This document shows positions 20,013 to 38,699 of a DNA stretch of 56,795 nt, in pieces. This DNA comes from Candidatus Rifleibacteriota bacterium. GTDB lineage: Bacteria; Riflebacteria; Ozemobacteria; Ozemobacterales; Ozemobacteraceae. A program made the translations under genes and the position numbers. Position 1 is the stretch's first letter. Every line of letters begins with the position of its first letter. The notes below the pieces were generated by a model. The model was not told the DNA's origin. It did no database searches and saw nothing but the letters and a program-made list of their open reading frames with translations. The stretch covers positions 1-56,795 of the forward strand of contig JAKQOH010000166.1 in assembly GCA_029565415.1 (NCBI GenBank), written 5' to 3'.

Positions 20013-20033
20013 TCGATTGGTGAACCAGAGAGG

Positions 20034-20073
20034 TATCAAAGAACTATCAAAAGAATATCAAAGAGCTATCAAA
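20034..20073. repeat. Four TATCAAA iterons at exact 11-bp spacing
   Basis: TATCAAA occurs at 20034, 20045, 20056 and 20067, each 11 bp from the next, about one helical turn, so all copies face the same side of DNA. A second pair in opposite orientation (ATTTGAT at 20341 and 20352) is also spaced 11 bp. The layout fits a cooperative operator. Confidence 0.75.
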
Positions 20074-20360
20074 GCCGAAATGGCGAAAACCCGCATCAGA
20101 AAAGGATTATGTCCTATGTTCGTCTCATTGTTTGGTGAGCATTCTATCAAAGAGCATAACAAAGGTTCTTGTTGGTTTGTGAACTTTTTATCAAACATTG
20201 AGGCAGACGGGGGTATGCACTCAAATGGGCGTTTAGACTCTGTGGAGTTCATTTGATTGCGATTGGTTTCACAAGTTATTGAGCAGGGTGGATATATCGT
20301 AAAACTGTCTCCAGATCATGGTTTGGGCATTTGGAAGTTCATTTGATGGCCATTTGATTG

Positions 20361-20369
20361 TGATAGAAT
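20361..20369 (+). promoter_or_regulatory. Candidate hsdR promoter
   Basis: TG-A-TAGAAT is an extended -10 word, with TTGATG 15 bp upstream as an imperfectly spaced -35. It overlaps the edge of the 11-bp-spaced ATTTGAT pair, so a protein bound there would block it. The expected start near 20376 leaves a ~64-nt leader. Confidence 0.4.
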
Positions 20370-20439
20370 TCACGTGGCACGGGCGGCATTGAACCATCTG
20401 ATGCCGGCGGGGTTGATACCGGAACGGGGGTGAGCAGGA

Positions 20440-23415
20440 ATGACACCGACAGACACCAGCGAAAAGGGTCTGGAGAGTCTGATCGTCACGGCCATGACCG
20501 GCAGGCCGTGGCCGGAGCCGGCAGCGCCGGATACTGCTCAACAGCAGGCTGCATCCTATGGCGGAACGGGCTGGTTGAACGGCCGGTCGCAGGAATACAG
20601 CCGTGACTGGTGTGTCGATCTGGGCCAGTTGACGGCCTTTCTGCGGGAAACCCAGCCGAAGCTCGATGCGGCCCTCGATTTGGGGAACGACTCGCCGGTC
20701 CGGCGGGCGTTCCTTTCCCGTCTCCTTCAGGAAACCCGAAAGCGTGGCGTCATCGATCTGCTCCGGCACGGTGTGAAACATGGGGCGCACGAAATCACCC
20801 TGTTCTACGGCACCCCCAGCGCCGGAAACGCGAAGGCAGCCGCCCTGCACGCGAAAAACCGGTTCATCGTGACCCGCCAGCTCAGATACAGCAACGATCA
20901 GAGGCGACGGGCGCTCGATCTCTGCCTGTTCATCAACGGCCTGCCTGTCGCCACTTTCGAGCTCAAGAACAACCTCACCAAGCAGACCGTCGCAGATGCC
21001 GTCGAGCAGTACCGGCGCGATCGGGACCCGCGAGAGCCGTTGTTCGAGTTTGGCCGCTGCATCGTCCATTTTGCTCTCGATGAAAACGAGGTGCGCATGT
21101 GCACCGCGCTGAACGGCAAAAAATCCTGGTTCCTGCCGCTGAACCAGGGCTGGAATGACGGAGCGGGGAATCCGCCCAACCCTGTCGGCATCAAAACCGA
21201 GTATCTCTGGAAGAATCTGCTCACGCCGCAGGGCTTGACGGATATCATCGAAAACTATGCGCAGATCGTCATCGAGCAGAACGCGAAGACGGGAAAAAAG
21301 AAGCCGAAGCAGATTTTCCCCCGATTCCATCAGCTCGACGTCGTTCGCCGTCTCATCGCCGATGTCGAGAAGCGCGGGGTCGGTTTCCGGTATCTCATCC
21401 AGCACTCGGCGGGCTCTGGCAAATCGAACTCCATCGCCTGGCTGGCGCACCGGCTGATCGGCGTCCGGAAGGACAACAAGCCTCTCTACGACTCGATCAT
21501 CGTGATCACCGACCGCCGGATTCTCGATCAACAGATCTGCGCCAACATCAAGCAGTTCGCCCAGGTAGGCGCGACGGTCGGCCATGCCGAGCATTCCGGC
21601 GACCTGCGCCGGTTCATCGAAACCGGAAAGAAGATCATCATCTCGACGGTGCAGAAGTTCCCCGTCATCCTCGACGAGATCGGAGACGAGCACCGGGGTC
21701 GCACGTTTGCCCTGATCATCGACGAAGCCCATTCGTCCCAGGGCGGCAAGACGTCGATTGCCGTGAACGCGGCATTGTCAGACCCCGAAGACACGGTGAA
21801 TGACGCGCTGGAGAAGCGCATGCAGGACCGGAAAATGCTCACCAACGCCAGCTACTTCGCGTTCACGGCGACACCGAAGAACAAGACCCTCGAGATGTTC
21901 GGCGTTCCCGTGCCGGCCCCGGAGGGCAAGACCGAGCATCATCCGTTTCACGTCTACACCATGAAACAGGCGATCCAGGAGGGCTTCATTCTCGACGTTC
22001 TCGCCCATTACACGCCGGTGAACAGTTACTACAAGCTGATCAAAACCGTCGAAGGCGACCCGCTGTTCGACACCCGGAAGGCCCAGAAAAAGCTGCGAAA
22101 ATACGTCGAAAGCCATGACCACGCCATCCGGCTCAAAGCCGAGATCATGGTCGACCATTTCCACGAGCAGGTGGCGGGTCTCGCAAAAATCGGCGGGGAA
22201 GCCCGCGCCATGGTCGTGACGAGCGGAATCGAACGGGCCGTCCAGTATTTTCATGCCATCCGGGAGTATCTTTCCGAGCGGAAGAGCCCGTATCGGGCGA
22301 TCGTCGCGTTCTCCGGAGAGTTCGCCTACGGAGACACGACGGTCACGGAAACCTCCCTCAACGGGTTTCCGTCGGGGGAGATCCCCGACCGGTTCCGGGA
22401 ATCGCCCTACCGGTTTCTGATCTGCGCCGAGAAGTTCCAGACCGGCTACGACGAGCCCCTGCTGCACACCATGTATGTGGACAAGATCCTCGCTGGGGTG
22501 AAGGCGGTGCAGACGCTTTCCCGGCTGAACCGGGCCTTTCCGGGAAAATACGACGTCTGCGTTCTCGATTTCATGAATGACGCCAAGACGATCCTGTCTT
22601 CCTTCCAGCCATTCTATCGTGCCACACTCCTGGCCGAAGAGACGAACCCGGACAAACTTCACGACCTCAAGAACACCCTGGACTCACATCAAGTATATAG
22701 TCAAAAATATATAGATGAGTATGCCGAAAAGTTCCTCTCCGGCGTGGGACGTGAGATCCTCGATCCGCTCCTGGAGTCGTGTGTCGACATCTACAAGACG
22801 TTGAGCGAAGACGACCAGGTCGAGTTCAAGGGAAAGGCGAAGGCGTTTTCCCGATGCTACGAGTTTCTCGCCTCTCTTCTGCCCTACGACAATGCCGCCT
22901 GGGAAAAGCTGTCGATCTTTTTGAACAACCTGATTCCCAAACTGCCTGCGCCGAAAGAGGAGGACCTTTCGAGAGGCATCCTGGAAGCCATCGACATGGA
23001 AAGTTATCACGCCGAGAAGAAAACCGCCCAGGCGATCCGGCTTGCGGACAAGAACGCCAAGATCGAGCCGTCACCCGTGGGCCCCGGAGGCAACTTGCCG
23101 GAACCTCAACTCGACCGGTTGACGAACATTCTCAAAACCTTCAACGACCAGTTCGGTACCCTGTTCAAGGATTCCGATCGGGTGATCCGGCGTATCCGGG
23201 ATGATATCGCCCCGAAAGTCGCTTCGAACGAGGCGTTTCAGAACGCCCAAAAACACACCCCCGGCACGGCCAGGATCGAGCACGACAAGGCGCTCGCCCA
23301 GGTCATGCTCACGCTCTTGCAGGACGATACCGAGGTCTACAAACAGTTCGTCCAGAATGAATCATTCAGGCGGTTCGTCACGGATCTCGTGTATCAATTG
23401 TCGATCGCTGCCTGA
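20440..23415 (+). CDS. hsdR: Type I restriction endonuclease subunit
   Basis: 991 residues. The N-terminal nuclease domain carries the PD-(D/E)xK core, with Asp in ALDLCLFINGLP and E-x-K in ATFELKN. The SF2 translocase follows: Walker A in HSAGSGKSNS, DEAH box in LIIDEAHSSQGG, motif III TATPKN and motif VI in LSRLNRAFPGK. The C-terminal helical part (about 730-990) binds HsdM. It cuts unmethylated DNA after ATP-driven translocation. The start MTPTDTSEKGLESLIV is typical of the family. It is separated from the rest of the operon by the repeat-bearing spacer, so its expression may be set apart from that of the methylase. A run of A/T-ending codons sits at 22685-22724. Confidence 0.94.
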   Translation: MTPTDTSEKGLESLIVTAMTGRPWPEPAAPDTAQQQAASYGGTGWLNGRSQEYSRDWCVDLGQLTAFLRETQPKLDAALDLGNDSPVRRAFLSRLLQETRKRGVIDLLRHGVKHGAHEITLFYGTPSAGNAKAAALHAKNRFIVTRQLRYSNDQRRRALDLCLFINGLPVATFELKNNLTKQTVADAVEQYRRDRDPREPLFEFGRCIVHFALDENEVRMCTALNGKKSWFLPLNQGWNDGAGNPPNPVGIKTEYLWKNLLTPQGLTDIIENYAQIVIEQNAKTGKKKPKQIFPRFHQLDVVRRLIADVEKRGVGFRYLIQHSAGSGKSNSIAWLAHRLIGVRKDNKPLYDSIIVITDRRILDQQICANIKQFAQVGATVGHAEHSGDLRRFIETGKKIIISTVQKFPVILDEIGDEHRGRTFALIIDEAHSSQGGKTSIAVNAALSDPEDTVNDALEKRMQDRKMLTNASYFAFTATPKNKTLEMFGVPVPAPEGKTEHHPFHVYTMKQAIQEGFILDVLAHYTPVNSYYKLIKTVEGDPLFDTRKAQKKLRKYVESHDHAIRLKAEIMVDHFHEQVAGLAKIGGEARAMVVTSGIERAVQYFHAIREYLSERKSPYRAIVAFSGEFAYGDTTVTETSLNGFPSGEIPDRFRESPYRFLICAEKFQTGYDEPLLHTMYVDKILAGVKAVQTLSRLNRAFPGKYDVCVLDFMNDAKTILSSFQPFYRATLLAEETNPDKLHDLKNTLDSHQVYSQKYIDEYAEKFLSGVGREILDPLLESCVDIYKTLSEDDQVEFKGKAKAFSRCYEFLASLLPYDNAAWEKLSIFLNNLIPKLPAPKEEDLSRGILEAIDMESYHAEKKTAQAIRLADKNAKIEPSPVGPGGNLPEPQLDRLTNILKTFNDQFGTLFKDSDRVIRRIRDDIAPKVASNEAFQNAQKHTPGTARIEHDKALAQVMLTLLQDDTEVYKQFVQNESFRRFVTDLVYQLSIAA

Positions 23416-23464
23416 TGCGCCCCGGGGGCATCTTCCCTCGTGCCGCTGAAGGGCATCTTCGAGA

Positions 23465-24133
23465 TCAGGAGACCTTGAACTTGACGATGCCTTCGACCCT
23501 GGAGACGGCGCCGATGATACGGTCGAGGTCCTGGTCGTAGAGGACTTTCGTGATCGTCTCGATCTCGATCTCGTTGTTCTGGATGTCCTTCGAGAAGTTC
23601 ACCGATTTGATCGAGATGTTGAACTGGGAAAGCAGCCCCTTGACCTCTTCGACGAACCGCGGCCGGTCGTTGCCCTTGATGTAGACCGTGCGAGTCGCGC
23701 TGCCGCGAAGATATTGTTTTTCGAATATATCAAGTCCAATTAAAACAAACAGGACGAGGACCGTTGCCCCGACACCGATATTGAAATACCCGGCGCCGAC
23801 GGCAAGCCCGATGATGGCTGTGGTCCAGAGGCTGGAAGCGGTCGTCAGGCCTTTCACGCCGGTGCCGTATCGGAAGATCGCTCCGGCCCCGAGGAACCCG
23901 ATGCCCGAAATGACCTGGGCTGCAAGCCGCTCGGGGTCGCCGTTCGTCGCCGAGGTGTGAAACTGCATCGAGAGGTTGATCGAGATGCACATGGCGATGG
24001 CGGAGCCGATCGCGAGGATGATGTGCGTTCGCAGGCCGGCCGGCTGGCTGTGCTTTTCCCGTTCGAGGCCGATCAGCCCGCCCAGGAACGCCGCGAAGAA
24101 AAGCCGGAAAATGATGTCGTATTCCGTCAGCAT
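23465..24133 (-). CDS. MgtC/SapB family membrane protein
   Basis: 222 residues from ATG 24133 (GGGGGGA ribosome site on the minus strand). Hydrophobic segments fill 1-140, with family marks GGLIGLEREKHSQPAGLRTH and GFLGAGAIFR. A C-terminal ACT-like cytoplasmic domain (about 145-222) follows. MgtC-type proteins affect Mg2+ and phosphate homeostasis and membrane ATP synthase in the species studied. It is divergent from the pst operon, with about 100 bp shared upstream, which suits linked phosphate and magnesium control. An A/T-ending codon run lies at 23710-23750, at the junction between the membrane and ACT-like parts. Confidence 0.88.
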   Translation of the reverse strand: MLTEYDIIFRLFFAAFLGGLIGLEREKHSQPAGLRTHIILAIGSAIAMCISINLSMQFHTSATNGDPERLAAQVISGIGFLGAGAIFRYGTGVKGLTTASSLWTTAIIGLAVGAGYFNIGVGATVLVLFVLIGLDIFEKQYLRGSATRTVYIKGNDRPRFVEEVKGLLSQFNISIKSVNFSKDIQNNEIEIETITKVLYDQDLDRIIGAVSRVEGIVKFKVS

Positions 24134-24201
24134 GACTCCCCCCAGATGAAACAGGTATCCCGATAATGTAACACATCTTGCGCATGGCGCATGGGCTGGA
24201 C

Positions 24202-24230
24202 TTGCCAAGAGGGCGGGGTTCTGGTACAAA
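24202..24230 (+). promoter_or_regulatory. Promoter of the pst operon, probably leaderless
   Basis: TTGCCA (24202-24207), a 17-bp spacer and TACAAA (24225-24230), with an extended TG at 24222-24223. The expected start, about 24237-24238, coincides with the GTG start codon of pstS. There is no ribosome site in between. Confidence 0.55.
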
Positions 24231-24237
24231 TGCGCCC

Positions 24238-25107
24238 GTGAAAACATTCGCCGCAGAAGCGCGAAACCGGCCGGAACGATCGGCGGGGCTGTTTGCCCGC
24301 CTCGGCCTCGTGCTGCTGGCGGGGATCTGCCTCGCGGGCCTGGCCGGCTGCAGATCCGGCGGAAGGGCGCTGATCGTGGCGGGCTCGACGTCGGTTCAGC
24401 CGGTCATGGAGAAAATCGCCGGCGCGTTCAGGAAAACGCGGCCCGACCTGCGTGTCGACATCGAGGGCGGCGGAAGCAGCGCCGGTCTCATGGCCATCCG
24501 GACGAAAACCGCGGCCCTCGCGATGTCTTCCCGGGAGCTGAAACAGAACGATCCCCAGGAAGCCGGCCTCTGGCGCCAGATCCTCGCGCTCGACGCGATC
24601 GCGATCATCGTGCATCCCGACAATCCCGTGGCGAGCCTTTCCCTGAGCCAGATCCGCGGCCTCTTCGCGGGTTCGGTGAAGTCGTGGAAAGAGGTCGGCG
24701 GCGCCGACCGCCCGGTCCATATCCTCGTCCGTGAGGAGGGTTCGGGAACCCGCAGTGCCTTCGAAGAGCTGGTGATGAAGGACGGCAAGGCCGAAACGCC
24801 GATCGACGATTACGCGCTGGTCCAGGATTCATCCGGCGGCGTGCGGGAGGTCGTGCGCGGTGACCGTGACGCGGTCGGCTTCGTCTCGATGGGAGCCCTG
24901 AACCCGCATGTGAAGGCCATCGCCGTCGACGGCACGCCCCCTACGTTCGAGACCGTGCGGGGGAAGCGGTACCGGCTCGTCAGGCCCTTCTTCCTCGCCG
25001 CCCTCCAGCCCCCGGCGGGCGATGCCGCCGATCTTGTGCGGTTTTCCCTGGGCAGCGAAGCGGCGCGTATCCTGCAGACGGAGGGCCTGGTCGGTGTCTT
25101 CGAGTAG
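24238..25107 (+). CDS. pstS: Phosphate ABC transporter substrate-binding lipoprotein
   Basis: 289 residues from GTG 24238. A lipoprotein signal ends LAGLAGC, so the protein is probably lipid-anchored. The phosphate-binding PBP-like fold shows GSTSVQPVMEKIAGAF, the phosphate loop GGGSSAGLMAI and EEGSGTRSAFEEL. It captures phosphate outside the inner membrane and passes it to PstCA. The frame is open upstream to TTG 24178, but the promoter lies within that stretch, so the GTG is preferred. It heads pstS-pstC-pstA-pstB1-pstB2-phoU on one strand with almost no gaps. Pho-regulon control is likely by family knowledge; I did not find a clear PHO box. Confidence 0.9.
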   Translation: MKTFAAEARNRPERSAGLFARLGLVLLAGICLAGLAGCRSGGRALIVAGSTSVQPVMEKIAGAFRKTRPDLRVDIEGGGSSAGLMAIRTKTAALAMSSRELKQNDPQEAGLWRQILALDAIAIIVHPDNPVASLSLSQIRGLFAGSVKSWKEVGGADRPVHILVREEGSGTRSAFEELVMKDGKAETPIDDYALVQDSSGGVREVVRGDRDAVGFVSMGALNPHVKAIAVDGTPPTFETVRGKRYRLVRPFFLAALQPPAGDAADLVRFSLGSEAARILQTEGLVGVFE

Positions 25108-25111
25108 CCCG

Positions 25112-25969
25112 ATGGCGGTCGACGACCTGCGCCGGCGCGAGGAGCGCATCCGGCTCGCGCTGCTCTGCCTGGCGTTCTCGTCGGTCCTCGTGCTCGCGCT
25201 CATCATTCTGTTCGTGTTCCGCGAAGGCGTGCCGCAGATCCTGAAAACCGGCATCCCCGCATTTCTTGCCGGAAGCCGCTGGGCGCCGACGAAAGGCGCG
25301 TTCGGCATCTTCCCGATGATCGTCGGCACCGTCCAGGTCACGCTCGGCGCGCTCCTCATCGGGGTGCCGCTTTCGCTGCTGTCGGCCATCTGCCTGTCGG
25401 AGTTCGCGAGCCGCCGCGTCCGGACCGTCATGAAGCCGCTGATCGAGCTGCTTTCGGCGATCCCGTCCGTCGTCTTCGGCTTCATCGGCGTCACGGTGAT
25501 CGTGCCGCTGGTGCGTGAAACCCTCGGCGGAAGCGGCTTTTCGGTGCTCTCTGCCGCCCTGATGCTGAGCGTGATGATCCTGCCCACCGTGACGAGCATC
25601 GCCTACGACGCCCTGCGTGCCGTGCCTGCCTCCTACCGGGAAGGGGCGCTTGCGCTTGGCGCCACCCCCTGGCAGACCGTCACCCGCGTCGTCGTGCCGG
25701 CCGCCCGCTCGGGCCTCGTGACGGCCGTCATCCTCGGCATGGGCCGGGCGATGGGGGAAACCATGGCCGTCATCATGGTCGCGGGCAACGCCGTCGTTGT
25801 GCCCACCTCGCCCCTCCACCCCTGCCGCACGCTCACGAGCAACATCGCCCTCGAGATGGCCTACGCCGCCGGCGCCCATCAGAAGGCCCTGTTCGCGACC
25901 GGCGTCGTTCTCTTCGTCATGATCTTCTGCCTCAACTCCCTGGCCACGTTCATCGTGCGCCGCCGCTGA
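25112..25969 (+). CDS. pstC: Phosphate ABC transporter permease PstC
   Basis: 285 residues from ATG 25112, 4 bp after pstS. Six membrane helices are visible. The binding-protein-dependent transport signature falls in EGALALGATPWQTVTRVVVPAA, the loop that docks on the ATPase. It forms the membrane channel with PstA. The longer open frame into pstS is disregarded because it overlaps that gene. Confidence 0.92.
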   Translation: MAVDDLRRREERIRLALLCLAFSSVLVLALIILFVFREGVPQILKTGIPAFLAGSRWAPTKGAFGIFPMIVGTVQVTLGALLIGVPLSLLSAICLSEFASRRVRTVMKPLIELLSAIPSVVFGFIGVTVIVPLVRETLGGSGFSVLSAALMLSVMILPTVTSIAYDALRAVPASYREGALALGATPWQTVTRVVVPAARSGLVTAVILGMGRAMGETMAVIMVAGNAVVVPTSPLHPCRTLTSNIALEMAYAAGAHQKALFATGVVLFVMIFCLNSLATFIVRRR

Positions 25970-25980
25970 CCGGAGGCCCC

Positions 25981-26823
25981 ATGGATCCAGCCGTCCGCAC
26001 CCGCAACGAGCGCATCAACCGCCTCGGCATCGGTCTGAGCTACCTCGTGACCGCCGCCGTCGGCCTGCTGCTCGCGGCGATCGTCGGGTATCTCCTCTGG
26101 AACGGCTGGCCGCGCCTCTCGGCTGCCTTTTTCCTCCATCATCCCGAAGATCTCGGCCGCGGCGGCGGCATTCTTCCGGTCATCCTCTCGACGGTGCTGC
26201 TCGGCGGCCTGTCGCTCCTCATCGCCGTTCCTCTCGGTGTATGCACGGCAGTATATTTGACGGAATACACAACGGAGGGGCGGTTGACGACCGCCATCCG
26301 GTTCGGGGCCGAGTGTCTGGCGGGCATCCCGTCGATCATCTTCGGCCTGTTCGGCTTCATCCTGTTCGTCGTGACGCTGGGGATGGGCTGGTCGATCCTG
26401 GCCGGCGCCCTCACCCTCGCCTGCATGGTGCTTCCGACCATCATCCGGACCGCCGAAGAGGCGATCAAGGCCGTGCCGGCCGGTCTGCGCGACGTCGGCT
26501 ACTCGCTCGGGGCGACGAAATCCCAGGTCGTCTGGCATATCGTTCTGCCCGAGGCCCGGCCCGGCATCATGACCGGCATCATCCTCGCCCTGGGCCGCGC
26601 GCTCGGCGAGACCGCCTGTGTCATCTTCACGACCGGCGTCTCGCTCGAAACCCCGATGTCCCTGCTCGATCCCGGCCGGCCCATGGCCGTTCACTTCTAC
26701 ATCCTCGCCCGCGAGGGCCTCTCGATGGAGATGGCCTACACGACGGCCCTGACCCTGGTCGGGCTGATCCTGCTCGTGAACGTCGGTGCCGCCTGGCTGC
26801 TCGCCCGGAAGAGAAGCTCATGA
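25981..26823 (+). CDS. pstA: Phosphate ABC transporter permease PstA
   Basis: 280 residues, ATG 25981 after GGAGGC. Six membrane helices, with the EAA-type coupling loop in DVGYSLGATKSQVVWHIVLPEA. It pairs with PstC. The stop overlaps the ATG of the first pstB (ATGA). A short block of A/T-ending codons lies at 26239-26274, at the second membrane helix. Confidence 0.92.
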   Translation: MDPAVRTRNERINRLGIGLSYLVTAAVGLLLAAIVGYLLWNGWPRLSAAFFLHHPEDLGRGGGILPVILSTVLLGGLSLLIAVPLGVCTAVYLTEYTTEGRLTTAIRFGAECLAGIPSIIFGLFGFILFVVTLGMGWSILAGALTLACMVLPTIIRTAEEAIKAVPAGLRDVGYSLGATKSQVVWHIVLPEARPGIMTGIILALGRALGETACVIFTTGVSLETPMSLLDPGRPMAVHFYILAREGLSMEMAYTTALTLVGLILLVNVGAAWLLARKRSS

Positions 26824-27602
26824 CGACGCCTGCGATCATCCTGAAAGCCGAGAAGGTCGGCTATACCTACGAGCCGCCGCCCGGCAAGCCCGCCGAGCCG
26901 GCGCTGGTCGATATCTCGCTCGAGGTCGAGACCGGAACCATCCTTGCCATCATCGGCCCCGGCCGCTCGGGAAAATCCACCTTTCTCCGGCTGATCAACC
27001 GTCTCCAGGAAGTAGCCCATCCCGGCGCGATGACCGGCCGGATCCTGGTGAACGGCTTCGACATCTACAGCCCCGCCTGTGATCCGTTCCGCCTCCGCCG
27101 CCAGGTCGCGTTCGCCTTCGACAAGCCCCGTGCGCTCGAGATGTCGATCTACGACAACGTCACGTTCGGCCCCCGTCTTGCCGGCATCACCGCGAAATCC
27201 GAGCTCGACGGGATCGTCGAGGAGACCCTGCGCGCCGCCTTCCTGTGGGACGAGGTGAAGGACCGCCTCTCGCTCGACGCGACCCGCCTCTCGGGCGGCC
27301 AGAAACAGCGCCTCTCGATCGCGCGATCGCTGGCCCTGAAGCCGAAGCTGCTCCTGCTCGACGAGCCCTGCTCGGCCCTCGATCCGATCTCGACGGCGGC
27401 CGTCGAGCAGGCCCTGGCCGAGCTCAAGAGCCGCACGACCTGCATCCTCGTCACGAACAACACCAAGCAGGCCGCCCGCGTCGCCGACGTGACGGCGTTT
27501 TTCCTCATGGCCCGGCTGGTCGAGATCGGCCCCACGGCCCGGATGTTCCGGAGCCCCGTCGACAAACGCACCGATGACTATCTTTCGGGGAGGTTCGGAT
27601 GA
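26820..27602 (+). CDS. pstB: Phosphate ABC transporter ATPase PstB, degenerate Q- and H-loops
   Basis: 260 residues. Walker A is GPGRSGKST (46-54), the ABC signature is intact LSGGQ (157-161) and Walker B with the catalytic Glu is LLLLDEP (Asp181, Glu182). Two key switch residues are changed: the Q-loop reads AFAFDKPRA, with Asp101 where PstB normally has Gln, and the H-loop reads VTNNTKQAARVAD, with Asn213 where His is expected. Alone, this subunit should hydrolyse ATP poorly. The next gene is a second PstB whose switch residues are intact but whose signature is lost. The pair therefore probably works as a heterodimer, with this subunit giving its LSGGQ to the partner's ATP site. Confidence 0.88.
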   Translation: MTTPAIILKAEKVGYTYEPPPGKPAEPALVDISLEVETGTILAIIGPGRSGKSTFLRLINRLQEVAHPGAMTGRILVNGFDIYSPACDPFRLRRQVAFAFDKPRALEMSIYDNVTFGPRLAGITAKSELDGIVEETLRAAFLWDEVKDRLSLDATRLSGGQKQRLSIARSLALKPKLLLLDEPCSALDPISTAAVEQALAELKSRTTCILVTNNTKQAARVADVTAFFLMARLVEIGPTARMFRSPVDKRTDDYLSGRFG

Positions 27603-28357
27603 GCGACGCCGTCGTGACGAGCCGGGGCCTCGACTTCTGGTATGGAACCTTCCATGCGCTGAAAAATATTACGATCGATATTGAACGGAGCCGCGTGACC
27701 GCGCTGATCGGCCCCTCCGGCTGCGGGAAATCGACGCTGCTGCGCGTCTTCAACCGGATGTGCGACCAGGTTCCCGGTGCCCGGCTCGCCGGCTCCCTCC
27801 AGGTGCTTGGCCGCGAACTGGCCGGGAAGAGCTGCGACGTGACCGGGCTGCGCCGCGAGGTCGGGATGGTGTTCCAACAGCCGAACCCGTTTCCGATGTC
27901 GATATTCGACAACCTCGTCTTCGGCCTGCGGCTGGCCGGGACGAACGACCGGGAGACCCTCGAACGGGCCGTCGAGACGAGCCTGGAGGCGGTCGGCCTG
28001 TGGGGCGCTCTGAAGGACCGGCTTCACGCGCCCGCGATAGGTCTCTCGGCGGATTTCCAGCAGCGGCTGTGCATCGCCCGCGCCGTCGTGATCCGGCCGA
28101 GCATCCTGCTGATGGACGAGCCCTGCTCGTCCCTCGACCCCGTCGCGACGCAGCACATCGAGGAGCTGATCCTGCGGCTCAAGCATGAATACACGATCAT
28201 CATCGTGACCCATTCGATGCAGCAGGCCGCCCGGATCTCGGACCATACCGGCTACATGCTGCTCGGGGAGCTGGTCGAGTTCGACGCGACGGCGACGATC
28301 TTCCGGCAGCCCCGCGACAAACGTACAGAAGACTATATTTCAGGAAAATTCGGCTGA
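27599..28357 (+). CDS. pstB: Second phosphate ABC transporter ATPase PstB, degenerate signature motif
   Basis: 252 residues, start overlapping the first pstB (ATGA). Walker A GPSGCGKST (38-46), Q-loop Gln93 in VGMVFQQPNPFPM, Walker B LLMDEP (Asp173, Glu174) and H-loop His205 in VTHSMQQAARISD are all canonical. The ABC signature is not: LSADFQQRLCIARA (149 on) replaces the usual LSGGQQQRLCIARA. The composite site formed by this subunit's Walker motifs and its partner's LSGGQ would be fully consensus; the other site would be degenerate. A/T-ending codon runs occur at 27661-27688 and 28321-28350. Confidence 0.88.
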   Translation: MSDAVVTSRGLDFWYGTFHALKNITIDIERSRVTALIGPSGCGKSTLLRVFNRMCDQVPGARLAGSLQVLGRELAGKSCDVTGLRREVGMVFQQPNPFPMSIFDNLVFGLRLAGTNDRETLERAVETSLEAVGLWGALKDRLHAPAIGLSADFQQRLCIARAVVIRPSILLMDEPCSSLDPVATQHIEELILRLKHEYTIIIVTHSMQQAARISDHTGYMLLGELVEFDATATIFRQPRDKRTEDYISGKFG

Positions 28358-28386
28358 GCGCCTGCGCCGGCCGTGGAGGATTTCGC

Positions 28387-29055
28387 GTGATCATCAAACG
28401 CCACATGGACATGGAAATGAACGAGCTGCGCGGCATGCTGCACGAGATGAGCCGGCGGGTGCTCGGCATGCTGGAGCGCAGCCTGAAACACGTCGGCACC
28501 GGGAATACCGAGCTGTTCGACGGGATCTTCGATGAAGAGGTGGAGGTGAACCGCCTCCAGATGCGCATCGACGACCTCGCCTGGAAGGTGATGGCCCTCT
28601 ACCAGCCGACGGCCGGGGATCTTCGCGCCCTGATCGGCTCGATCAAGGCGGCCGTCGATCTGGAGCGGGTCGGGGACGAGGTGTGCGCCCTCTGCCGCCG
28701 GTCGATGTCGCTCGCGAAAAGCTCCTGGCACGTCGATCCGCCCACGCTCATCGAGCTGGGCGTGATGGTGCAGAGCCTGTTCAAGGATGGACTCACGGCC
28801 CTGTTCGAGCCGACCGAGGAGCTGGCCGAATCGATCTTCACCGCCGACGACGCGATCGACGATGCGTTCCAGGCGCTGTTCGAGCAGATCCGCGCGCGCC
28901 TGCGCACCGAGCCGGAGCATGTCGACAGCCTGCTCGACTTCCTCTCGATGGGCCGGAGCCTCGAACGGATCGCGGACCATGCTACGAACCTCGCCGAGAT
29001 CGCCATCTTCATGCAGAAAGGCCAGGACGTCCGCCACCACGGCCTCACGTTCTGA
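28387..29055 (+). CDS. phoU: Phosphate signalling complex protein PhoU
   Basis: 222 residues in two related three-helix bundles, each with the PhoU metal-cluster type motif (AVDLERVGDEV in the first, GRSLERIADHATNLAE in the second). PhoU links the Pst transporter to the PhoR/PhoB sensor system and keeps the Pho regulon off when phosphate is plentiful. It lies 29 bp after pstB2 and ends the operon. No phoR or phoB is in the window. REP-like palindromes follow at 29084-29147. Confidence 0.93.
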   Translation: MIIKRHMDMEMNELRGMLHEMSRRVLGMLERSLKHVGTGNTELFDGIFDEEVEVNRLQMRIDDLAWKVMALYQPTAGDLRALIGSIKAAVDLERVGDEVCALCRRSMSLAKSSWHVDPPTLIELGVMVQSLFKDGLTALFEPTEELAESIFTADDAIDDAFQALFEQIRARLRTEPEHVDSLLDFLSMGRSLERIADHATNLAEIAIFMQKGQDVRHHGLTF

Positions 29056-29083
29056 AGACCTTGCGATGCGTTGTGGGGGCGGG

Positions 29084-29147
29084 TGTAGGGGCGGGTCTCA
29101 GACCCGCCCCTACAGAGACGAACGATCGGGCGGGTTTCAAACCCGCC
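29084..29147. repeat. Two REP-like palindromes after phoU
   Basis: A perfect 31-base palindrome (arms TGTAGGGGCGGGTCT / AGACCCGCCCCTACA, 29084-29114) is followed by a second (GGGCGGGTTT c AAACCCGCC, 29128-29147). They belong to the same family as 4130-4150. Such intergenic palindromes often stabilise the 3' end of an upstream message or bind DNA proteins; here they may protect or end the pst-phoU transcript. Confidence 0.8.
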
Positions 29148-29180
29148 TTTTCGAATGTGATACCGGATAACGGGGGAATC

Positions 29181-30419
29181 ATGGGCAACCGGACGGCCGA
29201 GATCGTGAGCGTGGGGACGGAACTGCTGCTGGGCGAGCTGGTCGACACGAATGCCGCCTGGATCGCGGGCGAACTGCGCCGGCTTGGATATTACGTCTAC
29301 TATAAAACGACGGTCGGGGACAACCGGGAGCGGCTTGCCGAGACGATCGGCCGGGCGTTCCTGCGGGCCGATCTCGTGGTGACGAGCGGCGGCCTCGGCC
29401 CGACCGACGACGACCTGACGAGGGAGGCGATCGCCGACGTCTGCGGCGCCGTGCCCCGCGAGGATGCGGAGCAGCTCCGCCGGCTCGAGGAGCTGTTCGC
29501 GGCGCGGAAACGTCAGATGCCGGCCGTGAACCGGAAGCAGGCATGGCTCATTCCCGGCGCCCGTCCGCTGGAAAATCCGATCGGAACCGCACCGGGCTGG
29601 TGGGTCGAGAAGGACGGCAGGACGATCGTCGCGATGCCCGGCCCGCCCCACGAGATGAAACGCATGTGGAACGAGCAGGTGAAGCCGGCGCTGCCCCGCG
29701 GAACGGCGGTCCTGTGGGATACGACGCTGCATACGGTCGGCATCGGCGAAGGCAACGTCGCCGAGCTGCTCGCCGAGTTCACGGGAAACGCGAACCCCAG
29801 TGTCGCGACCTATGCGCGGCGCCACGGAGTCGATGTACGGGTGGCTGCCGGGGCTGCCAGCCTCGATATCGCGCGGGAACTGGCCGCGCCCGTGCTGGCC
29901 GAGGTCGAGCGGCGCATCGGCCGGTTCGTGTGCAGCCGGGATGACGAAACGATCGCCCAGGCGATCGGGGCGCGTCTGCTCGCAGCCGGCCACCGGCTCG
30001 CCGTGATGGAGTCCGTCACCGGCGGGCTCGTCGCCGATCTGCTCACGGATACGCCGGGCGCGAGCGAGTGGCTGCAGGCAGGGGTGATCACCTACACGCG
30101 GCAGGCGAAGGAAGCGGCCGGCGTGTCGGCTGACCTGCTGGATGCCCACGGCTGCGTCGCCGAAGAGACGGCCCGGGCCATGGCCGAAGCCGTCCGGCGC
30201 CAGTTCGGCGTCGAGTGGGGCGTTGCCGCCACGGGGGTTGCCGGGCCGGCTCCGGCCGAGGGCAAGCCCGTCGGTCTCGCCTTCGTCGCCGTCGCGGGGC
30301 CTGCTGGCACCCGATCGATGCGCCTCGAATGGCCCGGACAGCGCCGCCAGATAAAGGAACGCACCGCCAACGCCGCCCTCGCCCTCCTTCTGCGTACCCT
30401 CCGCGGCGACCCGGAATGA
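29181..30419 (+). CDS. cinA: CinA: nicotinamide-nucleotide amidase / molybdopterin-binding-like domain protein
   Basis: 412 residues. The N-terminal MoaB/MogA-like domain (1-170) starts AEIVSVGTELLLGELVDTNA and has TSGGLGPTDDDLT. The C-terminal CinA (PncC-like) domain (about 255-412) has ESVTGGLVADLLTDTPGASEW and ATGVAGPAPAEGKPVG. Family members hydrolyse ADP-ribose or deamidate NMN in pyridine-nucleotide salvage, and are often linked to competence genes. It overlaps thpR by 4 bp, a common bacterial pairing. GGGGGAATC precedes ATG 29181. Confidence 0.93.
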   Translation: MGNRTAEIVSVGTELLLGELVDTNAAWIAGELRRLGYYVYYKTTVGDNRERLAETIGRAFLRADLVVTSGGLGPTDDDLTREAIADVCGAVPREDAEQLRRLEELFAARKRQMPAVNRKQAWLIPGARPLENPIGTAPGWWVEKDGRTIVAMPGPPHEMKRMWNEQVKPALPRGTAVLWDTTLHTVGIGEGNVAELLAEFTGNANPSVATYARRHGVDVRVAAGAASLDIARELAAPVLAEVERRIGRFVCSRDDETIAQAIGARLLAAGHRLAVMESVTGGLVADLLTDTPGASEWLQAGVITYTRQAKEAAGVSADLLDAHGCVAEETARAMAEAVRRQFGVEWGVAATGVAGPAPAEGKPVGLAFVAVAGPAGTRSMRLEWPGQRRQIKERTANAALALLLRTLRGDPE

Positions 30420-30934
30420 CGATGCGATTGTTCTATGCGGTGCAGGTGCCGGCCGAGATCCGGCGCGAGCTGCGCCAGGCGGCCGAGTCGATGGGCCGCG
30501 ACTGGCGGCCGTCGACCGAGGCGCAGCTCCACATCACCCTGGCGTTCATGGGGGAGGTGCCCGACGAGGCCCTTCCCGAGGTGATCGCCGCCGGTGAGGC
30601 GGCTGCACGTGCCGTCGCGCCTTTCACGCTCCGGTTGGGAGCGGCCGGCGGTTTCCCGAACGACCAATCGCCCCGCGTCTGGTTCATCCACGTGGAGTCC
30701 CCAGAACTGATGAAGCTCGGCGCCGCCCTGCTTCCCGGATTGAAGGCCTGGGCCGATCCCAAACCGTTCAAGGGGCATCTCACGATCGCCCGGCCCCGCG
30801 GCCCGCATGCTCCCGGACGACCGATGTCATTCAATCGGGAATGGCGCGTCGACCGTTTCCAGTTGATTCGCAGCACCCTCGGTTCCTCGGGGGCTGTCCA
30901 TGGCGTCGTCAGAGAATTTTCCTTATCTGACTGA
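30416..30934 (+). CDS. thpR: RNA 2',3'-cyclic phosphodiesterase
   Basis: 172 residues of the 2H phosphoesterase fold. The two catalytic HxT motifs are visible: HIT at 39-41 in QLHITLAFMGE and HLT in KGHLTIARP. The protein opens cyclic phosphate ends of RNA. ATG 30416 overlaps the cinA stop; ATG 30422 is a near alternative. Coupled with cinA in one transcript. Confidence 0.92.
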   Translation: MTMRLFYAVQVPAEIRRELRQAAESMGRDWRPSTEAQLHITLAFMGEVPDEALPEVIAAGEAAARAVAPFTLRLGAAGGFPNDQSPRVWFIHVESPELMKLGAALLPGLKAWADPKPFKGHLTIARPRGPHAPGRPMSFNREWRVDRFQLIRSTLGSSGAVHGVVREFSLSD

Positions 30935-31034
30935 TCCCGCCTGTTGCCGGAAGCGCGAAAATACCGTTTCCGGAAATAATGGCGCGTCGTGTGAAAATGC
31001 GAGGTCAGGGCGCTTGAAGGGACGCGGAGGCATC

Positions 31035-31184
31035 ATGCCCGTCGGGGCCGGGAGGGGGCGACCCCGATCCGGATATACGTCCGAAGAGATCGAAGACGAT
31101 GGCACAGCGATCGGTGAGGTTCTGAAATACCTGCTGACATCCGTTGGAGATTACCTGGGTACAAAGAGAGAACAAGAAGAATGA
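31035..31184 (+). CDS. Small hypothetical protein
   Basis: 49 residues, acidic and helical in the second half (SEEIEDDGTAIGEVLKYLL), with GCGGAGGC 4 nt before ATG 31035. No family is recognised. It is supported only by the ribosome site and protein-like composition, and may not be real. Confidence 0.3.
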   Translation: MPVGAGRGRPRSGYTSEEIEDDGTAIGEVLKYLLTSVGDYLGTKREQEE

Positions 31185-31867
31185 CACTGCCAGGAGAGTC
31201 GGCAGGAGAATGCGCAGTTTGCTTTCCCGGACAAGACGAACCACTTTTCTGAATATGCCGATATATTGACCAGGTCCGGGGTGAAGGGGGGAGCCCGACC
31301 CGCAGGAAGCGGGAAGTGGGTCGGCGGCGCCTGGATGGCGCAGTTCAGTCCGACCCGTATCGAGGGGACGGAAGAAGCGCAGGTTGCCGGCGCTCTTCGG
31401 GCGATGACTCTTGTATGGACCGAGATCTCTCATGTTCCTCTTCCTCCGTGGTAATGTTCCGAGCCGAGTCATGTGGCAGGTGCTTGGAGCACCATTGCGG
31501 CGATCACCGTTCGTGACGACGATGACATGCGCAGTAATATAAAACGTCGATATCCAGTGGATTCTTCCATGATACCGATCGAATGATACATCGGTATGTT
31601 TGATCTGTATGTCCGTATCATTCCTGACAGATGAAAAAAAGGACAGATGGGGTCGGGATACGCTTCGGCAAGCTCGTGGCGAACGACGGTGCTTCGCCGT
31701 GAATGATTCAACGGTTGGAACGAGCTTCGAATGTGTTTTGTCCGGTATTATACGGACATACATCGCTCTGCCTCGCTTCTAAGCTGATAAATTCAGAAAG
31801 AATCCATTCTCTCTGCGCTTTTGTTTGCTGAAAAATATATGATTCGATATGTTATATGGGGGGACGT
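31185..31867. other. Long intergenic region with a spaced inverted repeat
   Basis: About 680 bp with no convincing gene. A 13-base inverted pair, TGTATGTCCGTAT (about 31607-31619) and ATACGGACATACA (about 31749-31761), encloses ~130 bp containing GGACAGATGGGGTCGGGATA. This could be the relic of a small mobile element. The last 60 bp are A/T-rich (ATATATGATTCGATATGTTATAT) and probably hold the promoter of the protease lipoprotein. Confidence 0.4.
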
Positions 31868-32608
31868 ATGAATTCTCGGGTGATTCGGCGGGCGTCACTG
31901 TTCGGCATGGCTCTTTGCGTAATCGTCATTCTCGTTGCCGGCTGCCGTGTTTTTCAACCATTCGACAAGGACGACCCGGAAGTGCCCATGGCGCCTACCA
32001 CGCATACGCTTGATATCACGAAGACGGATATCGTGAACATCATCGCGAGCGCGACCGCTTCCGGAACTGACGTTTCCTGGAAACCCGAGACTACTGCCGT
32101 TGCTCAGGAGATTTCACAAGAACAGGTTCAAAGCGTTCTTTCCGGTGCCGCCGCCGAGGAAAAGCTCCCCGTCGAAGTGGCAGAGACTCTCAGCGGCTGC
32201 ACATTCAAAGAGGTGGCGAATGTCTCGATGAACGATCTGCCGGACGATGTTTTCAACTTTGAAAATGCCGAGAGCGATCTGGGCCTCTCGGGGCTCGATG
32301 AGAGCGGCGACATCATTCCCGGGGCGAGACGTCGCGGCTCAGCCAGAGCGTCATTTACCCTCCCCACGGCAATGAACTGGGCAAACAGAAACGGAGTGAA
32401 CTGGATTACCCCCGTGCGCGATCAGGGACCGTACGGTACCTGCGTGACATTCGCCACCGTAGCGGCTCTTGAATCCCATTACCGGATTGCCCGTAACTCT
32501 CCCACTGACGAACTCGATTTGTCGGAGTCCTATCTCTGGCATTTCGGCACTCAGATATTCCCTGGGAGCGACGGCCGACGTCCTTCTGACCCACTTGTCG
32601 GAGGATGA
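31868..32608 (+). CDS. Papain-like (C1A) protease lipoprotein, N-terminal part of an interrupted frame
   Basis: 246 residues to a premature TGA. A lipoprotein signal ends ILVAGC (Cys about 23). After a linker and pro-like region the C1A fold begins at NWANRNGVNWITPVRDQGPYG, with the nucleophile Cys192 in GTCVTFATVAALE. The His and Asn of the triad lie in the next open frame (32636-36670). Between ~32565 and ~32620 the expected sequence (ADVLLTHLSEDDGIPV) is found one frame over, so a frame gain and a frame loss nearly cancel. Either the gene is disrupted or the sequence has two indel errors. GGGGGGACGT precedes ATG 31868. Confidence 0.75.
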   Translation: MNSRVIRRASLFGMALCVIVILVAGCRVFQPFDKDDPEVPMAPTTHTLDITKTDIVNIIASATASGTDVSWKPETTAVAQEISQEQVQSVLSGAAAEEKLPVEVAETLSGCTFKEVANVSMNDLPDDVFNFENAESDLGLSGLDESGDIIPGARRRGSARASFTLPTAMNWANRNGVNWITPVRDQGPYGTCVTFATVAALESHYRIARNSPTDELDLSESYLWHFGTQIFPGSDGRRPSDPLVGG

Positions 32609-32635
32609 TGGAATTCCCGTGCGGCAACGCTTCTT

Positions 32636-35600
32636 TTGCCTCGATACGGTGGGATTGTCGATGAGTTCACGGCACCGTATGCCCTGCTGAAACAGTATCC
32701 CTACTTCGGACAGGTTCCGTCCGATGCAGTGAAATATGGAATCAACGGGATTTTCCGCCTTGGAAGCCCGACGGCAATCAAGCTGGCTCTTCAGAAAGGG
32801 CCGGTCATCGGAGGAATGAAAACCAACATCCTTCTTTGTTTTTACGGAGCAAACAGCGGCATCTACTCACATGTCCCGATTTATAACGATAAAGGCGTTG
32901 AAATATTCGAGCCCGGCAAACCCAATTCCCAGCCTGGCGGACACGCCATTCTGATCGTTGGCTATGACGACGCACAGGGCTGCTGGATCTGTAAGAATTC
33001 CTGGGGCACCGGGTGGGGGGAGAGCGGCTTCTTTCGGGTGAAATACGGCAACACGATTCGAGAAACATACGATGCCTATCTCATTTCCGTGCCGGTCATG
33101 ATAACAGGCCAGAGTCCGAGATCTGGTCAGAAAAACGTTGCTCTCGAGTCGGCTGTCAGAATCACCTTCGGTGAGCCGCTCAAGGCTGATACCGTTTCCC
33201 CGACGTCATTTGTATTGAATAATATAGTTACCGGGCAAGCCGTCGCCGGGGCGCTCTCTCTGGAAAATGAAAACCGAAGCGCCGTCTTCACCCCTGCCGA
33301 GCCGCTGGCTTCGGGAACGGCTTATTCGTTTCGGGTGACGACGGATGTGAAGTCGACCGATGGGGATACGATTGCGAAGAATGAAAACTGGGCATTCTAT
33401 ACTGTAGGCTATCTCGGTGACGTTCCTCCCGTGGCTGCATTCGTCGAAAAACCAGACAATCCGACCAGCCAGACAACCGGCTACTTCGAGATCGGTGGGA
33501 TCGACCTGTCGCATTTCAAATACAGCCTCGACGGGAAGGCGTTCACCTCGGAGATGCCGATCAGCCAACCCCTCGAACTCACAGGCTTGGCCGATGGAAA
33601 ACATACGCTGCGCGTCATCGGTCGAAAGACGAATGGCATCTGGCAGGCGGAAAGCGATGCGGCGAGTTATTCCTGGGTTATCAGCACCAAGCCGTCCTAC
33701 GTCAGTTTCACCCTTGGCCCGTTGAGTCCGACAACGGACCGGAAACCGGTGTTCTCGGTTCGCGGAAATGACGTCACGGCCATCAGGCTGAATCGCGATA
33801 ACAACGGCTGGTCAGGCTGGTTTGCCGTTTCGAACAATGCCTACGAAGAGTTTGTTTTCAATGCAGAGTTCGCCCCCGGCACTCATACCCTGAAAGTCGT
33901 GGGAAGAAATTCGCTCAACGTCGAACAGCCCCTGTCTGAGGCTGCCGTCTACACCTGGGTTATCGACGACGTCTACCTGCCCAATGCCATCCTTTTCGAT
34001 GTTCCGCCGCAGATCGCAACGGAAACGAGCGTTAACGCAACCGTTGGAGGCGCAGGAATAGTCAAATATCGCTACCGTCTCGATACCGATGCGTATTCCA
34101 GCGAGATTCAATCTTCTCAGGCCATTTCCTTGAGTGGACTCGGCATTGGAACCCACACTCTCAGCGTGCTCGGAATGACGGCGAACGGATACTGGCAATC
34201 GGCGGCTGCACCGACAAAATATTCCTGGAGAATCTCTCCTCCTGTCGTGGCTGAGTTCGTTGCAATGCCCATGAATCCATCATCGGTGGCGCAAGCGGAA
34301 TTCGTATTCGGCGGAACTGGTATTGCCGATTTCCGGTACAAACGAGACCAAGGTAGCTGGAAAGAAAGCGGCTCGAAATTGAATCTCGTTCTTCCGAATG
34401 ATGCATCTCTTGTTGGCACACATACTCTTGCGGTCATTGGAAAGAATTCGGACGGGTTCTGGCAGGATGCAAACACGGCTCGATCGTATTCATGGTTTGT
34501 GAATCCGAACATGCCAGTAACGGCGCAGATCAAAAACGCTCCGCCGAAAATCACCTCACAATGTTCAGTATCATTGAGCGTTGGGGGCGAACGGATTTCC
34601 GCATACAAATACAAGCTGGATTCCGCGGAGTATTCAGCGATTGTGCCGGCCAGTGCAACCATTGATATAACGAATCTGCCGCCGGGAGGGCATACGCTTC
34701 AGATTCTCGGAATCGATGTCTGTGGGAAACTTCAGCCTGAGGATGCCCCTACAGTGTTCACCTGGGTCATCGACATCGAGCCGAACACTGCCGTTCTTAT
34801 GAACCTGCCGCCAGCGCTGACGAATGCGAACGTTGCTTCGATCACGGTTGGCGGCGCCGGAGTCATTGCCTTCAAATACCAATTGGATGGCAACGCCTGG
34901 AGCGTAGAGCAAGCCGTTTCCCAGCCGATCACGCTGACGGGATTATCCGTTGGCTCTCACACACTGAGGGTGCTCGCAAAGGACGACGCCAGCAACTGGC
35001 AGGCGAGCAGTTCCGCCACGCTCTTCACCTGGATGATCGACACCATCGCCAAGATGGCCGTGTTGAGCAACACGCCGCCGGCCCTGACGAATCAGACCAC
35101 GGCCAGCATCACGGTCGGCGGAACGGGCGTCGTGGGCTATATGTATCAGCTCGATACCGGCGCTTACAGCTCCGAAATGCCCGTAACGAGCACGATTCAG
35201 CTCGCCGATCTGACGGTCGGCTCGCACACGCTGCGCGTCATCGCCCGAGATGCCGTCGGCAACTGGCAGGCGAGCAGTTCCGCCACGCTCTTTACCTGGA
35301 TGATAGATACGGTTGCACCCGTTGCATTGTTGACCACAAAACCGGCTGATCCGACAAATCTCACAACGACGGATATCACCATCTATGGAAACGGTGTCAC
35401 GGCATATCAATACCAATTAGATGGAGGCGGATATGCGACCGAAACCGCTATTGCCTCTCATATTCAACTATCTGCGCTCGGCGAAGGCGCTCACACGATC
35501 AACGTCATCGCCAGGGATGAGGCGGGAAACTGGCAATTACCCGCGAGCTCGACGAACGTTACCTGGACGATCGACACGGTGGCCCCAACGGCTGTTATCA

Positions 35601-36670: not shown

Positions 36671-36822
36671 GGCATCGGATTCGGCTGTTTAGGCAAAGAG
36701 GCGGCGGGGGCATTTTCGATCTCGGCAAAAATTGTACGTATTTTTCCCGACATACGTGGGCGTTGATATACGTTACAGTTTTGTAGCCTTGGGTATATCA
36801 ATACAGTCTGAAAGGATTATTT

Positions 36823-38451: not shown

Positions 38452-38479
38452 TCACGCTTACCCTCCTGTTCTCGATCTC

Positions 38480-38513
38480 GCGGGGCCGTGAAGCATTCGC
38501 ATCACGGCCCCGC
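38480..38513 (+). terminator. Hairpin after the hypothetical lipoprotein gene
   Basis: Twelve-base perfect arms GCGGGGCCGTGA / TCACGGCCCCGC around a 10-base loop. There is no T run after it, so factor-independent stopping is uncertain. Confidence 0.55.
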
Positions 38514-38589
38514 TTCCCGAAAACGGTCATTCCGGCGATGTTGCCCCATTGCGGAAGATAGGGAACATTCGCGACGCCGAGATGGAATC

Positions 38590-38621
38590 TTGCCAAACTT
38601 CTAAAAGCAAGAATATATAAT
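38590..38621 (+). promoter_or_regulatory. Promoter of the sensor kinase gene
   Basis: TTGCCA at 38590-38595 and TATATAAT at 38614-38621 resemble sigma-70 elements, with 18-20 bp between depending on the hexamer chosen. A start near 38628 leaves a leader of about 70 nt. Confidence 0.45.
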
Positions 38622-38699
38622 ATACGTTGTGTCTTTCGCCCGGATGAGGGGTATCATCGGGTTCTTGCCGAAAAAAATGCCCAAGACAGAGGAGAAAAT

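Follow-up and report, generated by a model that had tools for sequence, protein, structure and literature searches.

The window, the forward strand of contig JAKQOH010000166.1 from a Candidatus Rifleibacteriota bacterium analysed over its full 56,795 nucleotides, carries a phosphate-specific transport (Pst) operon in the order pstS-pstC-pstA-pstB1-pstB2-phoU, with two adjacent and unequal ATPase genes. High-affinity phosphate uptake is the standard task of Pst, which also provides input to PhoU signalling, and its ATPase is commonly depicted as a PstB homodimer. Our analysis indicates that this operon very probably encodes a PstC-PstA-PstB1-PstB2 phosphate importer in which the two ATPases form a heterodimer that hydrolyses ATP at one site and holds it at the other.

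PstB1 has Asp101 and Asn213 at the positions of the Q-loop glutamine and the H-loop histidine together with an intact LSGGQ signature, and PstB2 combines Gln93, Glu174 and His205 with LSADF as its signature. All of these residues had been named in a first-pass annotation of this DNA and all were read in the sequence, as was the ATGA overlap that it described between the two genes (27599-27602); pstA and pstB1 share another at 26820-26823, and both ATPase frames are intact. The annotation had not mentioned that the Walker A motif of PstB1 is also non-canonical (GPGRSGKST versus GPSGCGKST). The two proteins are 45% identical across 234 columns. PstB2 passes the cut-off of TIGR00972, the PstB equivalog model, narrowly; PstB1 fails it (Table 1) and is therefore, by that cut-off, a PstB homologue and not a member. 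The ratios of nonsynonymous to synonymous substitution rates (dN/dS) of 0.12 for pstB1 and 0.18 for pstB2, compared with a relative in locus L134, indicate purifying selection on both genes. The setting is that of a Pst operon: PstC, PstA and PhoU score above their NCBIfam cut-offs and stand with a PstS-like protein that scores above the Pfam PBP_like_2 cut-off; the substrate of the importer is presumably phosphate.

The asymmetry is shared by the relatives. A protein search was made with each ATPase, and the best 120 of about 8000 scored matches, the query counted, were read at the motif positions. All 120 PstB1 relatives lack the Q-loop glutamine (81 have Ala, 39 Asp), carry Asn in the H-loop and retain LSGGQ. 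Among the 120 PstB2 relatives, a degenerate signature accompanies intact Gln and His in 102, and the other 18 are canonical at all three positions; no further combination of motifs occurred among the best 120 of either search. The nearest named relatives among the matches listed are Candidatus Ozemobacteraceae assemblies and bacterium ADurb.Bin374, with further ones named Riflebacteria.

Genomic loci were collected in two ways. A scan of one-genome-per-species contigs with a DNA pattern that encodes VTNNTKQA, and so favours the H-loop Asn while leaving the signature of the partner unselected, gave at least 116 stretches (L001-L116), and an Asn-type PstB1 was readable in 111 of 116. Three of the others (L006, L021, L031) contained no PstB and were taken as chance matches of the pattern; in L029 and L074 PstB1 is truncated by the locus edge and a PstB2 with a degenerate signature follows it. 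The phylum labels of the 111 loci include Omnitrophota (24), Planctomycetota (15), Caldifarciminota (8), Hydrogenedentota, Acidobacteriota and Aminicenantota (5 each), Spirochaetota (4), Verrucomicrobiota and Ignavibacteriota (3 each) and nine further labels at one or two each, and 27 loci have no phylum rank. Individual labels may be mis-binned, since nearly all of these loci come from metagenome-assembled genomes or uncultured sources; the complete sequence of Sorangium cellulosum So0157-2 (L016) is among them. The second collection was independent of the motifs and used TIGR00972 searches of genomes, namely 39 of Riflebacteria, 145 of Omnitrophota (where places were taken from among the matches listed), 112 of Myxococcota, 100 of Spirochaetota, 99 each of Planctomycetota and of the phylum of a Melioribacter genome, 81 of Chloroflexota and 80 of the phylum of genome G017 (Actinomycetes). 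The phylum names of these samples were assigned in this analysis from the centre loci, and only the best candidates per genome were scored. Tandem pairs were chosen by eye from their position among the listed matches, regardless of motif. Sixty places, comprising tandem pairs and lower-scoring lone matches, were taken from the Omnitrophota, Myxococcota, Spirochaetota, Planctomycetota and Melioribacter-phylum samples: 47 carry a pair, with the asymmetry in all 47 (in L273 the PstB2 signature lies beyond the contig), and none of the 13 lone PstB is of the Asn type.

Across L001-L313, 475 readable PstB frames gave 406 distinct ones when identical cores were counted once; excluded were frames that scored below 180 with the hidden Markov model or whose Q, signature, Walker B or H stretch had gaps, X or an incorrect length. 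These 406 fall into 152 PstB1 that lack both Gln and His, all with H-loop Asn and an [LI]SGGQ signature, 149 with Gln, His and a degenerate signature, 104 with Gln, His and SGGQ, and a single odd protein (L312) with Gln absent, His present and LPEGM. The Q-loop residue of the 152 PstB1 is Ala in 128, Pro in 16, Asp in 7 and Thr in 1. A same-strand PstB follows downstream of 144 of them, the other eight being at locus edges, and the partner's signature is degenerate in all 141 cases in which it can be read (three are truncated before it). Seen from the other side, 143 of the 149 degenerate signatures carry E, D or Y in place of the second Gly, and an Asn-type PstB1 lies upstream of 141 of these 143, with the remaining two at locus edges. 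The first-pass annotation had named an unpaired PstB1 or PstB2 in related genomes as a finding that would speak against it; we looked for such cases, and wherever the locus DNA extends to the partner none of the 152 Asn-type PstB1 and none of the 143 E/D/Y PstB2 stands alone. Nor was there independent variation of the marker residues within this class, the other such finding that it had named. The annotation's more specific link between Asp/Asn and ADF holds in narrower form: Asp at the Gln position pairs with LS[AMP]D[FY] in seven of seven pairs, but this is a Riflebacteria form of a broader rule, and Ala or Pro pairs mostly with E/D signatures such as LSLEQ, LPLDQ, LTGEQ and LSLEE. Three genomes of the Riflebacteria phylum have Ala with LQADE (L150, L151) or LSPEQ (L149).

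The pair is present in 10 of the 39 Riflebacteria genomes. At E 1e-65, no third PstB was found in six of these ten, whose assemblies may be incomplete; two others (G029, G030) have a canonical PstB besides the pair (L147, L148), and G055 and G056 have a third TIGR00972 match at 227-232 bits. At L005, L047, L053, L270 and L295, the locus also contains a canonical single PstB gene, in the same orientation as the asymmetric pair and within a few kilobases of it. Gene order at the pair loci was read by BLASTP with the window proteins (E 1e-4). The exact order pstS-pstC-pstA-pstB1-pstB2-phoU recurs in 51 of 144 pair loci, and most of the others are shorter stretches of the same order or have added pst or pho genes; in six (L274-L278, L313) the genes after pstA-pstB1-pstB2 are pstC, in some cases pstS, and phoU. 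A 1:1:1:1 complex would fit operons that encode PstC and PstA once each together with two unequal PstB. A divergent lineage of 16 pairs (L274-L278, L284, L285, L287-L290, L293, L294, L299, L306, L313) occurs in the Myxococcota, Planctomycetota and Melioribacter-phylum samples; its PstB1 has DEFSIA[IV]DP at Walker B and the D-loop, Pro at the Q-loop Gln and VTNL, and partner signatures such as LSLEE, LSLEA or LQLEQ are followed by QK.

The losses extend beyond the marker residues. We took the columns whose conservation among 97 canonical PstB is 93% or more and scored their retention in 152 PstB1 and 143 PstB2; the His and Gly columns are lost by class definition, and the remaining columns are free of that. 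In PstB1, retention falls below 50% (PstB2 numbering) at Ser40, Gly41, Cys42 and Ser45 of Walker A; Met54; Gln93, Asn96 and Phe98 of the Q-loop; Ala178 of the D-loop; Leu190; Ile202; His205, Met207 and Gln208 of the H-loop; and Ser214, all of them in or near Walker A or the Q-, D- or H-loop. In PstB2, it does so at Gly151 and Gly152 of the signature and at Glu137 and Val138, 11-12 positions ahead of it. No conserved column was lost in the signature of PstB1 or in the Walker A, Q-loop or H-loop of PstB2. The Walker A Lys and the Walker B Asp and Glu are 100% retained in both, and an aromatic A-loop residue is found in about 94% of 148 PstB1. In a dimer of ATP-binding cassette (ABC) proteins, each site is composed of Walker A, Walker B and the A-, Q- and H-loops of one subunit and the signature and X-loop of the other (PMC7756269, excerpt). 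By this rule the complementary losses leave each subunit with the half needed for a single consensus site, and the signature is changed on one subunit and the catalytic residues on the other.

The residues also tell which composite site would be complete. It would be formed by the Walker motifs and the Q- and H-loops of PstB2 together with LSGGQ of PstB1, and it would hydrolyse ATP. The other site would combine the Walker motifs, Asp101 and Asn213 of PstB1 with LSADF of PstB2; its Lys, Asp and Glu are present, and in the class as a whole these and the mostly retained aromatic A-loop residue make the dead site look made for ATP binding. ATP would be bound there and hydrolysed little or not at all, serving as a hinge or a structural ATP. 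Most likely, ATP binding closes both sites, and hydrolysis takes place only at the PstB2 nucleotide that faces the PstB1 signature, while the PstB1 site would open less and retain its ATP, as has been proposed for degenerate-site exporters (PMC7756269, excerpt). We infer that PstB1 and PstB2 dimerise physically, that one ATP would be hydrolysed per cycle and that the heterodimer would be obligate. The proposal of the first-pass annotation, a heterodimer with one consensus and one degenerate site, thus fits both the 141 readable partners and the conserved columns, and its case is exceeded by the spread over many phyla, a single PstB1 clade and a natural fusion of the two proteins.

PstB1 forms a single clade with support of 99 in a 273-row FastTree, 100 in a 91-row tree with the trait columns removed and 95 in an 83-row tree that includes Chloroflexota, although many inner branches of the trees are weakly supported. 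PstB2 is not monophyletic in the free trees; constraining it to be so gave a better tree (approximately unbiased test, p-AU 0.996). The distances of PstB1 and PstB2 are correlated over 130 pairs (mirror-tree r 0.82), which we discarded as evidence of contact since shared descent explains it. At the Ala position of the EAA motif in the PstA coupling helix, asymmetric systems (n=140) have Val (68%) and Ile (10%), against Ala (74%) and Gly (22%) in canonical systems (n=82), where Val is not among the four residues listed; this shift is suggestive of a contact between PstA and PstB1. One natural PstB1-PstB2 fusion was found (P0242, 507 amino acids), with the identical split of motifs. Its AlphaFold model was built from a 5-row alignment of two-PstB fusions, a 90-row alignment having been set aside as 43 of its 44 PstB1-type rows fell on the second half (the 44th being P0242 itself). 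In this model (mean predicted local distance difference test score, pLDDT, 84.5; predicted TM score, pTM, 0.67) each half folds as an ABC domain, and the PstB2 half superposes on E. coli PstB at 1.3 A over 244 residues. P0241 and P0243 are fused double PstB of another unequal arrangement, with LSGGQ in both halves and Arg at the H-loop His of the second (VTRSMQQA).

Several observations weigh against this reading or limit it. The single PstB1 clade means that our counts are inflated by common descent. The likeness to exporters of the TM287/288 type that the first-pass annotation drew is only partial, because the Walker B Glu, whose replacement in degenerate sites is common though not universal, is kept in 152 of 152 PstB1. 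The fusion is one protein cluster on one contig, and the two halves of its model, derived from five rows, resemble no known pair of nucleotide-binding domains (NBDs) among the 50 rows listed (no TM above 0.51; both-half matches at a root-mean-square deviation above 10 A). Furthermore, a change at the first Gly alone is not diagnostic. The remaining six of the 149 degenerate signatures are LSxGQ (LS[ILV]GQ in L272, L300-L303, L154) with no PstB upstream, which we treat as a class separate from the E/D/Y PstB2, and lone PstB with LSTGQ and LSLGQ occur in Chloroflexota (L329, L332).

Chloroflexota also hold a half-way form, read in 7 genomes of the 81 sampled, that belongs with these points. Its PstB1-like protein has Gln replaced by Ala, an altered Walker A and LSGGQ, yet retains the H-loop His in six of seven (VPHS; L322 has VPQS), and its partners, with LSLGQ (five), LALGQ or FSLGQ, retain the second Gly. 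The two losses are therefore not always joint, which speaks against an all-or-none rule. The two genes are in tandem in L316; in L320, L321, L322 and L324 the order is pstS-pstC-pstA-pstB1-like with the LSLGQ pstB divergent upstream of pstS (His in three of the four); and two genomes have them on separate contigs (L325/L326, L327/L328). PstB1-like proteins and PstB1 share one side of a branch with support 98, and the Chloroflexota partner falls outside PstB2. This form may represent an earlier step or have arisen in parallel.

Four other explanations were weighed. The one that survives best accepts the heterodimer and takes its asymmetry as a frozen accident, an ancient inherited event with no meaning beyond the one active site. 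This is rather unlikely, and it overlaps with the preferred explanation, so that the likelihoods given here do not sum to one. The single PstB1 clade and the correlated distances are what shared descent would give. However, the degenerate residues differ among lineages, and even so Gln and His occur in none of 152 PstB1 and the second Gly in none of 143 PstB2 (by class definition); no mixed-state third class was seen in L001-L313 except L312, and the DEFSIA lineage of 16 pairs has changed further and retained the split.

Alternatively, PstB1 and PstB2 could form two homodimers that serve the same PstCA under different conditions. Tandem pstB genes that keep every motif in both copies do exist, in E. 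faecalis, where PstB2 in excess substitutes for PstB1 (PMC12096839, excerpt), and with Gln, His and LSGGQ in five Chloroflexota pairs (L314, L315, L317-L319) and one pair from the phylum of G017 (L323). Here, however, each homodimer would have two defective sites, PstB1 being without Gln and His and PstB2 without a normal signature, and the losses are complementary and paired in every readable case, which makes two alternative importers very improbable. For the asymmetric class we would predict that excess PstB2 fails to substitute for PstB1.

It is hardly more credible that PstB1 is a regulatory subunit without ATPase activity, for example toward PhoU, and that a PstB2 homodimer drives transport. 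PstB1 is the more changed of the two in its catalytic residues and is below the PstB cut-off, but [LI]SGGQ as well as the Lys, Asp and Glu are kept throughout the 152, and a PstB2 homodimer, its own signature lost, would be without both signature halves. That relaxed selection is letting one or both ATPase genes decay as duplicates has next to no probability, given that the substituted motif residues stand against low dN/dS, an asymmetry maintained across many phylum labels, and a constant asymmetry despite replacements that vary by lineage (A, D, P or T for Gln; E, D or Y for Gly).

The features of the operon are collected in Table 1. An MgtC-family gene (PF02308) lies at 23465-24247 on the reverse strand, divergent from pstS. 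Further downstream, the start of a papain-like peptidase (by eye) spans 31856-32608 and ends in a TGA at 32606-32608, and a long open reading frame with repeats follows in the same frame at 32636-36670. An Rfam scan of positions 20000-40000 gave no matches.

Table 1. Genes of the pst operon in the window and motif positions of its two ATPases.
Feature	Position	Strand	Basis and remarks
pstS, phosphate-binding protein	24238..25107	+	GTG start picked by eye; profile matches: best NCBIfam model TIGR02136 at 179.3 bits, below cut-off (206.6); PF12849 at 119.8 bits, above cut-off
pstC, permease subunit	25112..25969	+	ATG start picked by eye; TIGR02138, 297.4 bits (cut-off 196.45)
pstA, permease subunit	25981..26823	+	TIGR00974, 259.6 bits (cut-off 193.45)
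pstB1, ATPase	26820..27602	+	260 amino acids; TIGR00972, 287.3 bits (cut-off 343.2)
PstB1 variant Walker A GPGRSGKST, Lys retained	26955..26981	+	sequence reading, conserved-column scan
PstB1 Asp101 (FDKP), Q-loop Gln position	27120..27122	+	sequence reading, conserved-column scan
PstB1 signature LSGGQ, intact	27288..27302	+	sequence reading, conserved-column scan
PstB1 Walker B Asp-Glu retained (DEPCSALDP)	27360..27365	+	sequence reading, conserved-column scan
PstB1 Asn213 (VTNN), H-loop His position	27456..27458	+	sequence reading, conserved-column scan
pstB2, ATPase	27599..28357	+	252 amino acids; TIGR00972, 349.7 bits (cut-off 343.2)
PstB2 canonical Walker A GPSGCGKST	27710..27736	+	sequence reading, conserved-column scan
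PstB2 Gln93, Q-loop (FQQP)	27875..27877	+	conserved-column scan
PstB2 degenerate signature LSADF	28043..28057	+	sequence reading
PstB2 Glu174, Walker B (DEPCSSLDP)	28118..28120	+	conserved-column scan
PstB2 His205, H-loop (VTHS)	28211..28213	+	conserved-column scan
phoU	28387..29055	+	TIGR02135, 152.7 bits (cut-off 130.25)

It is quite possible, if short of probable, that the pairs represent an ancient second class of Pst across many phyla, the sole Pst found in some genomes, which spends one ATP per cycle and whose dead site, permanently occupied by ATP, serves as a hinge or senses either ATP or PhoU, with the split pairs of Chloroflexota as an earlier, less degenerate stage. As each site carries the tag of a different gene, a conserved asymmetric Pst would allow one to ask directly whether the import of one phosphate takes one ATP or two, how the two permeases and the two ATPases are matched in their contacts, and whether PhoU signalling and transport are separable by site. 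Moreover, for the question of degenerate sites, treated for exporters in PMC7756269 (excerpt), the system would supply a counterpart among importers with the two ATPases encoded separately.

Asymmetric ABC pairs are well known; the surprise here is the breadth of the asymmetric Pst across phyla. We found no publication on a degenerate or asymmetric PstB pair among the open-access papers searched, subscription papers lying beyond that search. The operon resembles that of E. coli PstSCAB (PDB 9k3x, 9k3s) in having PstS, PstC, PstA and PhoU together, but the E. coli structure contains a single PstB sequence, whereas here two genes show complementary motif loss. Tandem PstB are known from Firmicutes. 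E. faecalis has two adjacent pstB in one pst-phoU operon (PMC12096839, excerpt), in contrast to the window pair with all motifs in both copies, and PstBA and PstBB of B. subtilis have been modelled together as a Pst complex with two NBDs (PMC11466899, excerpt). RbsA and NupO of B. subtilis are likewise importer NBD pairs with one degenerate site (PMC11466899, excerpt); unlike the Pst pair, they belong to type II importers, their NBDs are fused in one chain and the second Walker A Lys is lost. The degenerate-site exporters TM287/288 and Pdr5 share with the predicted heterodimer one consensus and one degenerate composite site, and the Pdr5 signature LNVEQ resembles the LSLEQ of many PstB2 (PMC7756269, excerpt). 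Replacement of the Walker B Glu by Asp is the second commonest change in the degenerate sites of human transporters (section 7 of PMC7756269, excerpt). In contrast to those exporters, the system described here is an importer with separate NBD genes that keeps the Walker B Glu and the Walker A Lys, and it has lost the Q-loop Gln and the H-loop His instead.

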